This document shows, piece by piece, positions 17,473 to 36,014 of a stretch of 36,922 nucleotides of DNA. The notes under the pieces are model-generated. The model searched no databases. It was not told the DNA's origin and saw only the letters and a program-made list of their open reading frames with translations. The position numbers were made by a program, and so were the translations under genes. Source of the stretch: Microgenomates group bacterium Gr01-1014_7. GTDB lineage: Bacteria > Patescibacteriota > Microgenomatia > Daviesbacterales > UBA10151. The number at the start of each line of letters is the position of its first letter. Positions within the stretch are counted from its first letter, which is position 1. The DNA is taken from positions 1-36,922 of the forward strand of contig VMGD01000011.1 in assembly GCA_007376405.1 (NCBI GenBank). The letters are read 5' to 3'.

Positions 17473-19020
17473 ATGGATGAGCCAGAGTTAGATTTTACTA
17501 AGCTAAAGTATGTTCTTTATGCCAGAAAGTCTACAGATGACCCTCAAAGGCAAGTAAGATCCATAGGCGACCAGATATTTGAATGTAAACAATTAGCTTC
17601 AAGGCTTGGATTAAATCTTGTTAAAGTCTTAGAAGAAACAAAATCAGCTAAGAAACCAAATAAACGACCATTATTTAGACAAATGTTAAATGACCTTAAA
17701 AAAGGTGTCTATGATGGCATATTAGCTTGGAATCCAGATAGATTGGCTCGGAATATGAAAGAAGGTGGGGAAATCATAGACATGATAGATGAGGAAGAAA
17801 TTAAGGATTTAAAGTTTGTTACCCACCACTTTACCAAAGATGCTAACGGCAAAATGCTTTTAGGAATGAGTTTTGTGCTAAGTAAGCAATATAGTGACGA
17901 TCTATCTCAAAAGGTAACAAGAGGTGTCAGAAGGAACTTTGCAGAGGGCAAATCCGCAATCCCCAAACATGGGTATATCAGAACTGAGGAAGGTTATTAC
18001 AAACCTGATGGTAAAAACTTTGAGCTAATCTGTACAGCTTGGGAGTTAAGATCAAAGGGTGAATCTTTAGAGGATATAACTAAATTTATGAATGATAACA
18101 ATTATTCAAAAGTTATTAAACGAACAGGCAGAAAAGTTGATATGGATATAAAGATTTTAACTGACATTTTCCATGACCCTTTTTACTACGGCATTTTAGT
18201 TCAGGCTAAACAAACTGTAGATTTAAGAGAAATTTATAACTTCCAACCTGCTACGACCGAAGATATTTACAATCAAGTTCAGGAGCTTTCAATTAGAAGA
18301 CTGAAACCATTTAATACTAAACACAGATTAGCTTTTTATCCACTCAAAGCTATGGTTAGATGTTCCTTTTGTGGGCATAATATGGTAGTTGGCCCATCAA
18401 CTGGAAGTAAAGGCACAAGATACCTCAACTATAGATGTGATAATAAGCTCTGTTTAAGAAAAAAGAGATCAATACGAGCCAAAGAAGTATTTAACTGGAT
18501 CTATGGATTCCTAAAAGATGGGCTCAATTTAACTGAGGAAGATTATAAGCGGTACTACCATGATCTAACTAGACTCACAGATGATAAAAGGCAGAAAATA
18601 GGCATAGAGATCCATAGCAAGCAAGGTAGGATAAAAGTAATTGACCAGGAGATCAAAGAACGCTCTTTAGGACTTCTAACGCTCAATATTCAGCCAACAG
18701 TCAAGAAAGTTAATGAGGATAGAGTGTTGGAGCTTGAGCAGGAGAAAGAAGAATTACATGCGAAAATTGAAGAGCTTAAAGCAAAACTAACAAATTCAGA
18801 AGATGATAGATTATCCATTGAAGAGTTCTTGAACCTATCAAAAAATGCTGGTGTAATAGTCCAAAGTGCCAATGCAATTATAAAAGATAAGATTTGTAGA
18901 GAAATATTCTTGAACTTCACTGTCAATGAGGAGAAAGTATTGTCATACCAGCTTAAACCCCACTTTGCAGAGATGCTAAAAAGCAAGCAACAACGTACTA
19001 GTCGGGGTGAGAGGAATTGA
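17473..19020 (+). CDS. Large serine recombinase (site-specific integrase)
   Basis: 515 aa. The resolvase-type catalytic domain starts YARKSTDD with nucleophile Ser20 and shows the conserved DGILAWNPDRLARNMKE block. A recombinase domain follows (~170-290), then a zinc ribbon (RCSFCGHNMV...RCDNKLC), a coiled-coil region (~385-440) and a short tail. The set is complete, so it is probably active. The last codons (RGERN, stop) lie inside the tRNA-Pro gene on the opposite strand, so the tRNA 3' half is the likely attachment site and this is the element's right edge. TATAAT lies 6 nt before the ATG. No directionality factor is recognised. Confidence 0.93.
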   Translation: MDEPELDFTKLKYVLYARKSTDDPQRQVRSIGDQIFECKQLASRLGLNLVKVLEETKSAKKPNKRPLFRQMLNDLKKGVYDGILAWNPDRLARNMKEGGEIIDMIDEEEIKDLKFVTHHFTKDANGKMLLGMSFVLSKQYSDDLSQKVTRGVRRNFAEGKSAIPKHGYIRTEEGYYKPDGKNFELICTAWELRSKGESLEDITKFMNDNNYSKVIKRTGRKVDMDIKILTDIFHDPFYYGILVQAKQTVDLREIYNFQPATTEDIYNQVQELSIRRLKPFNTKHRLAFYPLKAMVRCSFCGHNMVVGPSTGSKGTRYLNYRCDNKLCLRKKRSIRAKEVFNWIYGFLKDGLNLTEEDYKRYYHDLTRLTDDKRQKIGIEIHSKQGRIKVIDQEIKERSLGLLTLNIQPTVKKVNEDRVLELEQEKEELHAKIEELKAKLTNSEDDRLSIEEFLNLSKNAGVIVQSANAIIKDKICREIFLNFTVNEEKVLSYQLKPHFAEMLKSKQQRTSRGERN

Positions 19021-19073
19021 ACCTCCTGCTTCTCGCTCCCAAAGCGAGCGTTCTACCGATGAACTACACCCCG
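19002..19073 (-). tRNA. tRNA-Pro (UGG)
   Basis: 7-bp acceptor CGGGGTG/CACCCCG, discriminator A, anticodon loop TTTGGGA, T-loop TTCAATT and D-loop ATCGGTA, all standard. CCA is not encoded. The 3' half is antisense to the end of the recombinase gene. Confidence 0.95.
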
Positions 19074-28538: not shown

Positions 28539-29777
28539 TTAAAGCTTGAATCTCCTGTCTGCTAAAAAGGGGTTGGGTTTACGGGACATGTAGGTAGAAC
28601 CTAAAAGAATCCCACGTTTTAAGGTAAACTCTCCGTATTTATTATTAATTTTATCCATTATTTTTAATATTACCTCCTGCCTTGTTATTTCCGGCAATAA
28701 ACTTAAATTCTGGGGAGTAAGTGGTTTTAGGTTTGAAACTGAACCTCCTATCATCCTTATTTCCCCTTTTTCCCATATCTCCCTAAAAATTCCCCATGCC
28801 GCTCTAAATATCTCCAGCCCATTATTAGTATACTGAATGGTAGTTTGCATTCCGCCTCCCTCAAACCCATACCCGGCATGGGTTGAGGCGACATGCCGGG
28901 ATTTTAATGCTTCTCTATACCAACAATACACTGTTTTTCCAACCAGATTTTTAGTCCGAAGTCTGACTGCTACCAGCTCACACAGTTTAAGCAAGATTTG
29001 GTAAATTTCTTCCGGATCGGCAGTATCATAATCTATAGTATGCCGGTGGCCCACAGATTTTACTTCCCCCTTTTCATAAAAGGGGATAATGGGTGAATAA
29101 TCCAGTCCTCTTGCCATGTTATATAAAATCTGCCCGTAACTTTTAAATGAAGCAAGTAAAGCTTCCAGGGGTGCTGCCCGCAATTGTTTGAAATTGCAAA
29201 CTCCCAGACTAAAAAGCCTTTTCTTTATTCTTGGGCCAATTCCGCAAATCTCGTCCAGCTCCTGTTTGTCCAGAACTTGAATGGCTGCTTCCTGATCCGG
29301 AATTACCACCAGCCCGTCCGGCTTTTGCAAACTTCCTGCCAGCTTTGCCATTAGTTTGTTATAAGAAATGCCGATTGAGCACCTCATCCATTCCCCCACT
29401 TCCTGCCTGATTCTTTTTTTAATCTCTTGTGCAGTAGTGACTGAACTGGACTCTATTTCTAAAAATGCTTCATCAATGCTAAATACTTCCAAATAAGGAC
29501 TGTAGTCTTTCAGGATATTTAAAAAGCGGGTGGTAGTAGCCAGATATTTATCCGAGTCTCCGGGAACCAAAATTATATTAGGGCAAAGTTTTTTGGCTTC
29601 CCATATTTGCATGCCGGTTTTAACTCCAAACTGCTTTGCTTCAACAGATGCCGCACCCAAAACAGTACGCTTTATTCTATCCCCACCTGTTACTCCAACA
29701 GGTTTACCCCTTAAGCGTGGATTAGCCTGCTGCTCAACACTGGCAAAATATGAATTAAAATCAATATGAAGAATCAT
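28539..29777 (-). CDS. dinB: Y-family DNA polymerase IV, with a repeat-derived insert
   Basis: 412 aa. The palm motif MILHIDFNSYFASVEQ has Asp6, and FSIDEAFLEIE holds the second acidic pair. A helix-hairpin-helix thumb block (LDEICGIGPRIKKRLFSLGV) and a little-finger domain follow. It performs translesion synthesis. Residues ~292-305 (SRHVASTHAGYG) come from repeat family A inserted in the little-finger domain; the flanking YREALK and FEGGGMQTTIQY would otherwise form adjacent strands. A small gene precedes it with 17-nt overlap. Confidence 0.93.
   Translation of the reverse strand: MILHIDFNSYFASVEQQANPRLRGKPVGVTGGDRIKRTVLGAASVEAKQFGVKTGMQIWEAKKLCPNIILVPGDSDKYLATTTRFLNILKDYSPYLEVFSIDEAFLEIESSSVTTAQEIKKRIRQEVGEWMRCSIGISYNKLMAKLAGSLQKPDGLVVIPDQEAAIQVLDKQELDEICGIGPRIKKRLFSLGVCNFKQLRAAPLEALLASFKSYGQILYNMARGLDYSPIIPFYEKGEVKSVGHRHTIDYDTADPEEIYQILLKLCELVAVRLRTKNLVGKTVYCWYREALKSRHVASTHAGYGFEGGGMQTTIQYTNNGLEIFRAAWGIFREIWEKGEIRMIGGSVSNLKPLTPQNLSLLPEITRQEVILKIMDKINNKYGEFTLKRGILLGSTYMSRKPNPFLADRRFKL
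28865..28903 (+). repeat. Palindromic repeat family A, copy 3 (inside dinB, translated)
   Basis: 39 nt, one mismatch to copy 1 (ACCCATA in place of ACCCATG). The dinB gene reads the opposite strand and another frame than the gene with copy 2, giving SRHVASTHAGYG, again without a stop or frameshift. Confidence 0.88.
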
Positions 29778-30009
29778 CTACAGCCTCCAAGTGCCACATC
29801 ATCTTATTTGTATCTAGTTTTAATCTATAAAAATTCCCTCCGGAAGAAACTGAAAAGTGATAAAATACACTACTGCCGTTTTTACTGGTATGCACCAGGT
29901 TAATCTGATCTATTTTTATTTTCCTGCCATGCCAGAAAAAAAGGTAAGGCTTTATGAGATTTCTTTCAAAAAACACCCAGACATTAATAACTTCATGTAT
30001 TTCTGCCAT
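29761..30009 (-). CDS. Hypothetical small protein upstream of dinB
   Basis: 82 aa, beta-rich: NLIKPYLFFWHGRKIKIDQI then SVFYHFSVSSGGNFYRLKLD and MMWHLEAVDDSSY. No family recognised. The end overlaps the dinB start by 17 nt, so translation is likely coupled. The start region overlaps that of the divergent gene at 29954; a GTG at 29976 would shorten the overlap. TATAAC lies 7 nt before the ATG at 30009. Confidence 0.55.
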   Translation of the reverse strand: MAEIHEVINVWVFFERNLIKPYLFFWHGRKIKIDQINLVHTSKNGSSVFYHFSVSSGGNFYRLKLDTNKMMWHLEAVDDSSY

Positions 30010-31672
30010 ATTATTTGTTATAGCCCCAAATATAACCCAAAGTCAAGAAGTATTTGCTATTTACGATCCATTATCTGCACCTAATAACAAATACGGCATT
30101 CATATTATTCAGGCTACGCCTGATGAATCGTCTCCTGCTGCCTCTTTAGTTAATTCCTCCGGCGGTGACTGGGGATACATTACTTTTTTAATAGAAAGCA
30201 AAGATAGAAACGAAAGCAAATGGCAGGAATTTTTTAATGATTTAAGACGCCGGCATTTAATCCCAATTGTCCGTCTTGCCACCAAACCTGTTAATGAATA
30301 CTGGGAAGTGCCTTATGAAAAAGAATATGAAGCCTGGGCTGATTTTTTGGATAATTTAAACTGGCCTGTTAAAAACAGATATGTGGTTATTTATAACGAG
30401 CCTAACCATGCTAAAGAATGGGGAAATTTTGTTGACGCTAAATCTTATGCGAAAGTGTTAGATCAGACTATCACAGCTTTAAAATCTAAAAACCGGGACT
30501 TTTTTGTACTCAATGCAGGGCTTGATTCAGCAGCCCCCTCAAAACTGCCCCAATATGAAGATCAGTTTAAATTTATGGAATTAATGAATGAAGAAGTCCC
30601 AGGAATATTTAATAAACTGGATGGTTGGGTTTCCCATTCTTATCCTAATCCGGGGTTTGTAGGATCCCCCGATGCAACAGGCAGAGGTAGTGTCAGGGGC
30701 TATATCTGGGAGTTGCAACAACTGCGGAAATTTGGAGTAACCAAAACTTTGCCGGTGTTTATAACAGAAACCGGCTGGAAACATGCAGAGGGATTAAAGT
30801 TAGACCCAAGCTTGCCGGATGCTGGAACCGTGGCATCCTACTATCTGCAAGCATTTCAATCGGCCTGGAATAACCCTCAAATAGTGGCAGTAACCCCCTT
30901 TTTATTAAGTTATTTGCAATCCCCTTTTGACCATTTTTCTTTTAAGAAGCCAGAGGGCAATGAATATTATCCTGTATATCAGACATTAGCTAACTTGACC
31001 AAACAAGCAGGAAAACCAATACAGGATATATTAGCCAAATTAACCAAAGGTGAAGTTTATTCATCCATTGTGGCCGGTGAAACCTACTCTATCTCTCTTA
31101 CTTTTAAAAATACCGGGCAGCCAATCTGGAATGATAGTTCCATAGTTAGTTTAAGAGCCGATACAGGTGCTAAGGAACTGGGTATAGACCCTGTTGAAAT
31201 AGCAAGAGGCATGAAAATAGAACCTGGTCAGGAGTATGAATTTAAAATTAATTTAAGAGCGCCCCTTTCGGGTATTTATAAGGTTTCACTTAATTTATTT
31301 GACGGAGAAAAACAGTTTAATTCAAAACCGGTTGAATTTACCACGGAGGTTAAATCTCCGGTAATTTTACGGGTCAAAACTGCTTTAACCTGGAAAAAAA
31401 GCCCGGCAGGGAATTATTATCTGACAGTAAAGGGCCCGACCGGAGACAGTATGCAGTTGGTGAATATAAACAGCGAAGGGGGCTCGAACAAAATAGAAGC
31501 CAGGTATTTGCTGCCGGATTATACTTTTGAATTCAGCCTGGAAAGGAAGTTTTACAAACCAAAAAGTATTAACTTAAAAGTCTATGCCGGAGAAAATATT
31601 CTTGACTTTGGAACCCTTAAACCGGATATCCTCGCAATCCTCCTCAATCTTCCCGCCTTCTGGAAACTATAA
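29954..31672 (+). CDS. Exported glycoside-hydrolase-like protein (GH-A clan) with C-terminal Ig-like region
   Basis: 572 aa with signal peptide (~1-33). The ~35-345 region is a TIM-barrel: YNEPNH (Glu149, likely acid/base) and FITETGWK (Glu272, likely nucleophile) are the two catalytic glutamates of clan GH-A enzymes, resembling GH39/GH5-type families. After residue ~365 an Ig-like module follows (YSISLTFKNTGQPIWNDSS then LRAPLSGIYKVSLNLFDG), like NBR1-type domains. Substrate unknown; likely a surface or host glycan. AAGGTAAGG supplies a Shine-Dalgarno. Confidence 0.72.
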   Translation: MRFLSKNTQTLITSCISAILFVIAPNITQSQEVFAIYDPLSAPNNKYGIHIIQATPDESSPAASLVNSSGGDWGYITFLIESKDRNESKWQEFFNDLRRRHLIPIVRLATKPVNEYWEVPYEKEYEAWADFLDNLNWPVKNRYVVIYNEPNHAKEWGNFVDAKSYAKVLDQTITALKSKNRDFFVLNAGLDSAAPSKLPQYEDQFKFMELMNEEVPGIFNKLDGWVSHSYPNPGFVGSPDATGRGSVRGYIWELQQLRKFGVTKTLPVFITETGWKHAEGLKLDPSLPDAGTVASYYLQAFQSAWNNPQIVAVTPFLLSYLQSPFDHFSFKKPEGNEYYPVYQTLANLTKQAGKPIQDILAKLTKGEVYSSIVAGETYSISLTFKNTGQPIWNDSSIVSLRADTGAKELGIDPVEIARGMKIEPGQEYEFKINLRAPLSGIYKVSLNLFDGEKQFNSKPVEFTTEVKSPVILRVKTALTWKKSPAGNYYLTVKGPTGDSMQLVNINSEGGSNKIEARYLLPDYTFEFSLERKFYKPKSINLKVYAGENILDFGTLKPDILAILLNLPAFWKL

Positions 31673-35215: not shown

Positions 35216-35239
35216 TCAGGGGATAATTGCCAATTTTGC
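35216..35239 (+). repeat. 24-bp direct repeat, right copy
   Basis: TCAGGGGATAATTGCC and AATTTTGC; see 34273-34296. It lies 26 nt before the -35 box of the candidate RNA gene. Confidence 0.75.
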
Positions 35240-35264
35240 TATATTTTGACCTACTTTGTCCCAG

Positions 35265-35292
35265 TTGACAGACCACTGTATAACATTATATA
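35265..35292 (+). promoter_or_regulatory. Promoter of the candidate small RNA
   Basis: A consensus TTGACA (35265-35270), 16 nt, then TATATA (35287-35292); TATAAA at 35289-35294 gives 18-nt spacing. It predicts a start near 35299. No start codon follows in the correct position, unlike the window's protein-gene promoters. Confidence 0.6.
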
Positions 35293-35298
35293 AATATA

Positions 35299-35383
35299 GA
35301 ACCTGTAAAAAACCGCAAGGTTCGAATCAGTCGCAAGACCAATTCACAGGTTTCTAAGAATCCCGCTGCAAGGCGGGATTTTT
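35299..35383 (+). ncRNA. Candidate structured small RNA, ~85 nt
   Basis: Between a strong promoter and a strong terminator. AACCTGT (35300-35306) pairs with ACAGGTT (35346-35352), closing two hairpins: AACC-GCAA-GGTT (35311-35322) and GTC-GCAA-GAC (35330-35339), both with GCAA (GNRA) loops. The result is a three-way junction followed by the terminator hairpin. I recognise no known RNA family. The function is unknown; the pattern could serve as a ligand- or protein-binding RNA. There is no reading frame of note. Confidence 0.5.
35359..35383 (+). terminator. Rho-independent terminator of the candidate RNA
   Basis: AATCCCGC/GCGGGATT, 8-bp stem with a 6-nt loop, followed by TTT. Counting from the inner stem, five T's follow GCGGGA. 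The T-run is on the + strand, so it serves the RNA and not the minus-strand gene that ends at 35390. Confidence 0.75.
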
Positions 35384-35389
35384 AGTGAG

Positions 35390-35878
35390 TTATGGACCTA
35401 GTAGTGCAGCGGTACCTAAAGGAGTAGCGTATCTTTCTTTAGGATACCTCAATTGGACAAGTCCATCCGAATTCCTATCAGAAACTAATTTATAGACTTC
35501 CACAAATTCCCCAGTAATATCATCAATCGTGTCAAACATTACAGATCTTAGGGAAGGGGGAAGCACACCGTAACTTCTGTCGTGAAAGACAAAAATTGGT
35601 TCCGGCTCCAAATTTAATCCCTCATTATTTTGTTTTATGGCTTCATTATTTGGAGGGGGCCACCTGAATTCCAAGCTTAAACCTTGACCAACAAACCAGG
35701 CAGAACCAACTCTATGAGTTTTAATAGTTGGTAAAAACTTCTGGGACAAATAAACAGTGAATCCCTCAGTTCCTACGTAACCAATGTATCTTCTGCAGAA
35801 TCCAACGAGCCTTGTGCCGGTATATGCAACCTCATCCCTATCCCATTCATAATGTAGCATCAATCCTTCAACTTGCAT
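35390..35878 (-). CDS. Hypothetical protein, 162 aa
   Basis: No family recognised. Beta-rich and soluble, with several Trp/Tyr residues (HYEWDRDEVAYTGTRLVGFC, SAWFVGQGLSLEFRWPPP). A single Cys. TAGAAT lies 11 nt before the ATG. The stop is 6 nt from the small-RNA terminator, arranged tail to tail. Confidence 0.55.
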   Translation of the reverse strand: MQVEGLMLHYEWDRDEVAYTGTRLVGFCRRYIGYVGTEGFTVYLSQKFLPTIKTHRVGSAWFVGQGLSLEFRWPPPNNEAIKQNNEGLNLEPEPIFVFHDRSYGVLPPSLRSVMFDTIDDITGEFVEVYKLVSDRNSDGLVQLRYPKERYATPLGTAALLGP

Positions 35879-35938: not shown

Positions 35939-36014
35939 GGTGGATGTAGCTCAAAAGTAGAGCATCTGTTTGTGGAACAGAAAGTAGCGGGAGCGTTACC
36001 CGTCATCCACCCCA
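35939..36014 (+). tRNA. tRNA-His (GUG) with unusual D- and T-loops
   Basis: G-1 present, acceptor GTGGATG/CATCCAC, discriminator C, CCA encoded at 36012-36014, anticodon loop TTGTGGA. Stems are intact, including T-stem GCGGG/CCCGT. The D-loop is AAAAGTA (position 18 A) and the T-loop AGCGTTA lacks T54, U55 and A58. G19 and C56 remain. TAAAAT at 35925-35930 is a candidate -10. Confidence 0.85.

Follow-up and report, generated by a model that had tools for sequence, protein, structure and literature searches.

The window analysed here is a stretch of 36,922 nt from Microgenomates group bacterium Gr01-1014_7 (contig VMGD01000011.1, positions 1 to 36,922), and at 35265-35385 it contains a promoter, then a three-way junction whose two hairpins are capped by GCAA, and finally a terminator. 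The RNA of about 87 nt that these elements would delimit (35299-35385) is called sRNA A in this work, and it is a small RNA gene that was not previously catalogued. The parts of the locus are as follows:

35234 to 35264, plus strand: upstream promoter block TTTTGCTATA TTTTGACCTA CTTTGTCCCAG, with TTTTG repeats phased at about 10 bp, immediately 5' of the -35 box
35265 to 35270, plus strand: -35 box TTGACA; TTGAC is invariant among the aligned sRNA A promoters
35287 to 35294, plus strand: -10 region TATATAAA; the spacer is 16 if read as TATATA and 18 if read as TATAAA
35299 to 35306, plus strand: closing stem, 5' strand GAACCUGU, from the fold; the stem is conserved, and the predicted transcript start lies about here
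35311 to 35322, plus strand: inner hairpin 1, AACC-GCAA-GGUU, from the fold; replaced by different hairpins in relatives
35324 to 35345, plus strand: inner hairpin 2 with a GCAA loop, from the fold; the equivalent helix covaries
35346 to 35353, plus strand: closing stem, 3' strand ACAGGUUU, from the fold; it continues into a conserved GUUCUC linker in most relatives
35354 to 35385, plus strand: intrinsic terminator CUAAGAAUCCCGCU-GCAA-GGCGGGAUUUUUAG, from the fold; the stem covaries
35940 to 36014, plus strand: tRNA-His (GTG), a conserved neighbour downstream of sRNA A

In the minimum-energy fold, the closing stem pairs 35299-35306 with 35346-35353 (8 bp), hairpin 1 pairs 35311-35314 with 35319-35322, hairpin 2 pairs 35324-35327 with 35342-35345 and 35330-35332 with 35337-35339, and the terminator pairs 35354-35367 with 35372-35385 and has a T-run at 35379-35383; all three hairpin loops are GCAA. 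The fold energy was -38.1 kcal/mol, compared with -18.65 +/- 2.88 in shuffled sequences (z = -6.75), and none of the 200 shuffles was as stable as sRNA A. A preliminary description of this DNA had proposed a consensus promoter (TTGACA, 16 nt, TATATA), a 7-bp closing stem around two GNRA hairpins and a terminator, with no reading frame to explain them. Both promoter boxes were found, with TATATA at 35287-35292 and a spacer of 16 to TTGACA, and alignment with relatives also permits a -10 element 1-2 bases farther downstream, which gives a spacer of 17-18. The closing stem and both GCAA hairpins were recovered in the fold, except that the stem measures 8 bp; the terminator was recovered as the hairpin at 35354-35385, and no reading frame codes through sRNA A.

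The predicted promoter is of the sigma-70 type, near consensus, with a conserved upstream block, and from the position of the -10 region the transcript would be expected to start near 35299. A generic promoter and terminator scanner reported neither the promoter nor the terminator of sRNA A, which is a consequence of its rules, because the -10 region lacks the T demanded at position 6 and the T-run is paired into the terminator stem. Having its own promoter, conserved among 20 aligned orthologues, and its own covarying intrinsic terminator, sRNA A has the make-up of an independently transcribed sRNA gene. RNA polymerase would initiate at the promoter with its upstream block and halt at the intrinsic terminator, and we are nearly certain that sRNA A is transcribed.

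Two further genes of the window were observed. In the region 17473-19073, a serine recombinase gene (Resolvase and Recombinase domains) overlaps with its 3' end an opposite-strand tRNA-Pro (19001-19073), to which a tRNA-Leu is adjacent, and this region looks like an integrated element. In the region 28539-30009 on the minus strand, a Y-family DNA polymerase gene (IMS domains) is preceded by a small overlapping ORF without a Pfam match; no promoter block was found in this region at 3 mismatches.

Distribution and covariation of sRNA A

BLAST recovered near-full-length homologues of sRNA A from further genera within its family (best E 4e-22), and the homologues retain all parts of the locus. Of the 45 genomes of the family, 32 matched a covariance model of sRNA A at E<=0.01, and in 23 the E-value was <1e-4; these E-values are rough, the covariance models being short-calibrated, and the matches were one per genome. 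When the model was run over 374 genomes of the class, little was found outside the family, the single exception being genome G141 of family f12, in which the promoter and the terminator flank two GCAA hairpins and a closing stem whose sequence is unrelated. The host group of sRNA A is made up of tiny uncultivated bacteria, a Daviesbacteria-like family of the Microgenomates.

Across twelve long-form orthologues, 96.1% of cells were paired and 33 double-change cells were counted, compared with 11.5 +/- 3.0 in shuffled alignments, and slid control alignments were all far worse than the true one. Within the family, the promoter block, the closing stem AACCUGU/ACAGGUU, the linker GUUCUC(U/G)AAG (GUUYUC..AAG) and the terminator are conserved, while the inner hairpins have been exchanged wholesale for others in relatives and the fold persists. 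In many orthologues the loop of hairpin 2 is 8-9 nt long and not of the GNRA type, a single inner hairpin is present in G025, G034, G037 and G022 and tandem hairpins in G023, G006 and G017, and the three-way junction is retained with a completely replaced closing stem in G009 and G007 and a partly different one in G015; these hairpin types, like the promoter classes counted below, were assigned by reading script output, without an independent classifier. In general layout, a closing stem encloses one hairpin or two, which are exchangeable and mostly have GNRA caps, and the GUUYUC..AAG linker and the terminator hairpin come next.

The preliminary description had named a lack of conservation in close relatives, a lack of covariation and an Rfam match as grounds for refutation, and none of these was observed. 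It had also named conserved GCAA loops as a sign of support, but because hairpins and loops vary among orthologues, these loops are not the conserved feature of sRNA A, and its suggestion that GNRA loops serve as functional docking elements gained no support. GCAA is an ordinary stable cap in these genomes, carried by the terminator loop too. In sRNA A the number of hairpins and the greater part of the sequence have changed, and this is as compatible with a role as structural element or spacer as with a regulatory one. The high variability of the inner hairpins might even suggest a chance hairpin cluster or a mobile hairpin element with no function as RNA, but this is contradicted by the conserved promoter, the covariation, the synteny and the single matches, and we consider it exceedingly improbable.

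Two pattern searches were also carried out. The exact core of sRNA A gave three genuine Microgenomates matches (G030, G005 and G032), and its matches in a Bacteroidetes MAG, a Desulfobacterales chromosome and one further MAG were rejected as chance matches without a terminator. A three-GCAA pattern mostly matched tandem repeats or coding sequence, and its informative matches outside the family were in G141, G091, G189 and G327. Tandem arrays of 20-40 bp units with CGCAAGCTTTGCTTTAGA-like sequence were met in the GCAA-loop search at L222, L226, L228 and L229 (G031, G023, G041 and G037).

At the gathering threshold, Rfam 15 reported only tRNAs in the window and no family over sRNA A, and again only tRNAs over the homologue loci L148, L235, L236, L115 and L116, in agreement with the preliminary description, which knew of no family with this layout. 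The best sub-threshold match was RNAI (RF00106), at 18.4 bits against a gathering threshold of 47, so sRNA A is not a member. This plasmid copy-number antisense RNA is similar to sRNA A in length and in its stem-loops followed by an intrinsic terminator, whereas sRNA A is chromosomal, gives a single match and is conserved beside tRNA-His, and no complementary primer RNA was seen. A diverged RNA-polymerase-binding or other housekeeping RNA (6S-like or SRP-like) could also have such a strong promoter and be matched once in most genomes of the family. However, 6S RNA is a long bulged hairpin and SRP RNA has a GGAA motif, neither of which is present in the short multibranched sRNA A, and Rfam gave no 6S or SRP match in sRNA A or its relatives; we regard this identity as highly improbable. 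A literature search turned up nothing on sRNA A, nor any description of a regulatory RNA in Patescibacteria.

A second small RNA and the tRNA-His neighbourhood

The same genome carries a second small RNA of about 55 nt, sRNA B (G000:C20:9187-9241; locus L148, 688-742, plus strand), in which a hairpin, UUYUC-AAG and a terminator follow one another downstream of the same upstream block. It was found in 27 of the 29 listed family genomes, with relatives in L118, L141, L143, L151-L160, L162-L164 and L169, and it covaries as well (30 double-change cells compared with 11.2); like sRNA A, it matches no Rfam family. Matches of the sRNA B model outside the family were rejected as generic terminators, since the promoter was missing. 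Most family genomes carry sRNA A and sRNA B as a pair, and by promoter, linker and terminator layout the two look paralogous. In some genomes sRNA B adjoins tRNA-Gln, and in others it lies upstream of a riboflavin-synthase-like gene (read by eye).

A same-strand tRNA-His lies downstream of sRNA A at 21 of 30 orthologous loci, and a homologue of the window ORF 29954-31672, which is located about 3.6 kb upstream of sRNA A and had no match in a Pfam search, lies upstream at 17 of the 30. By this synteny, the weak-scoring sRNA A loci are mostly still orthologues. In G141, too, tRNA-His (anticodon GTG) follows the sRNA A-like locus after about 50 nt. Such an arrangement, on the same strand in most genomes and in another family, would be expected if sRNA A were a cis element of the tRNA-His gene, i.e., a leader, attenuator or processing element. 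Nevertheless, sRNA A has its own terminator, its distance to tRNA-His varies from about 40 to 800 nt, the opposite-strand ORF 35390-35878 separates the two in the window, several tRNA-His genes have their own promoter-like sequence immediately upstream (read by eye), and sRNA B, with the same layout, adjoins other genes. A cis element is thus very unlikely, and it is very likely that sRNA A acts in trans, not on tRNA-His.

The promoter block shared with lexA

The upstream block was defined by aligning 20 orthologous promoters and by pattern searches with reversed-pattern controls. The aligned promoters share TTTTGCTATA-TTTTGAYCYA-TTTTGTCCYAG-TTGACA, with TTTTG repeats phased at about 10 bp. 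A 22-base pattern searched with <=3 mismatches in 43 family genomes gave 78 matches, compared with 13 for the reversed pattern, a control that preserves composition and loses the promoter context. By their downstream sequence, 17 of the 78 belong to sRNA A, as expected by construction because the pattern was taken from sRNA A promoters, 19 to sRNA B, 17 to lexA and 25 to other sequences. In the own genome, the block at 3 mismatches has three matches only, i.e., sRNA A, sRNA B (G000:C20) and lexA (G000:C22), the last identified by PF01726 and PF00717. A general promoter element was therefore rejected as an explanation of the block.

Thus, a promoter element is common to sRNA A and lexA, with 17 lexA matches in 43 genomes, the own genome included; many lexA promoters are without the block. 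A published LexA/SOS motif of Patescibacteria is cited in PMC8565304 and PMC7739468. Across 30 lexA promoters of the family we found the direct repeat TTCGGGTTnTnTTTGGTA, which sits in the promoter spacer of lexA family-wide (loci L085-L114; L149 in the own genome) and probably serves this lineage as its LexA operator. Unlike the block, the repeat is absent from the aligned sRNA A and sRNA B promoters, so direct LexA control of the sRNAs is unsupported, and a LexA operator in the sRNA A promoter was rejected; the common part is the upstream block. The block might also have no regulatory meaning and simply be a strong element of the UP type, and we consider the chances about even that through it sRNA A is expressed jointly with lexA and further DNA-damage genes.

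In other families, the block was found before small RNAs of f16 (G327, G189 and G128) that have GNRA-type hairpins and a terminator and appear homologous to sRNA A by promoter and layout, without a covariance match, and it stands before a lexA-like gene in f41 (read by eye). In f11 and f17, nrdR-like genes also have the block upstream (read by eye; L082 of G054 and L279 of G144), so that more genes may share it. The preliminary description had mentioned neither the upstream block nor sRNA B, and neither the neighbouring tRNA-His nor the connection with lexA.

Proposed role of sRNA A

Taken as a whole, sRNA A is probably a genuine small RNA gene acting in trans as a regulatory RNA; the gene itself is well supported, and the mechanism is our best guess. 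In its 3' layout (hairpin, U-rich linker, terminator and U-tail), its own promoter and its intrinsic terminator, sRNA A resembles Hfq-dependent trans-acting sRNAs, but it has almost no unpaired seed and no sequence similarity to them. Moreover, Hfq (PF17209) was found in 0 of 57 genomes while control genomes were positive, which sets sRNA A apart from sRNAs that depend on an Hfq encoded in the genome. KH_KhpA-B domains were found in 56 of the 57; KH proteins being near-universal, their presence is weak evidence for a KhpA/KhpB partner.

A base-pairing antisense sRNA would have its seed either in the GUUCUC(U/G)AAG linker or in the A-rich strands of the junction, and would pair with the purine-rich translation starts of several mRNAs. 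The site directly before the terminator is a typical position of sRNA modules, and the linker occupies it; GUUCUC is also retained where the 5' strand no longer pairs fully (UAAACC, UAGACC and AUGACC forms). However, sRNA A has few unpaired nucleotides, which disfavours long antisense pairing, sRNA B carries GUUUUC, so that a common seed is not retained, and Hfq was not found in the 57 genomes; we consider antisense pairing unlikely. In a tentative reading that we find somewhat more plausible, though still short of an even chance, the functional part may be the 3' module (U-rich linker, terminator and U-tail). An RNA-binding protein, for instance KhpA/KhpB, would hold this module, and the closed junction at the 5' side would act as a cap that stabilises the RNA. 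sRNA A would then be a stable regulatory RNA that works through its 3' module and the bound protein and is expressed alongside DNA-damage genes. Our broadest reading, which is doubtful, is that sRNA A and sRNA B are a paralogous, Hfq-independent pair of structured RNAs in several Microgenomates families, expressed from a dedicated promoter element common with lexA, that their 3' module is fixed while the hairpin cap at the 5' end evolves freely, and that they form an RNA arm of a DNA-damage or growth response in reduced genomes. With its promoter signature shared with lexA, sRNA A offers a concrete starting point for testing how RNA may regulate genes in bacteria that have no recognisable Hfq, and the promoter block could help to map genes under joint control in the genomes of uncultivated organisms.
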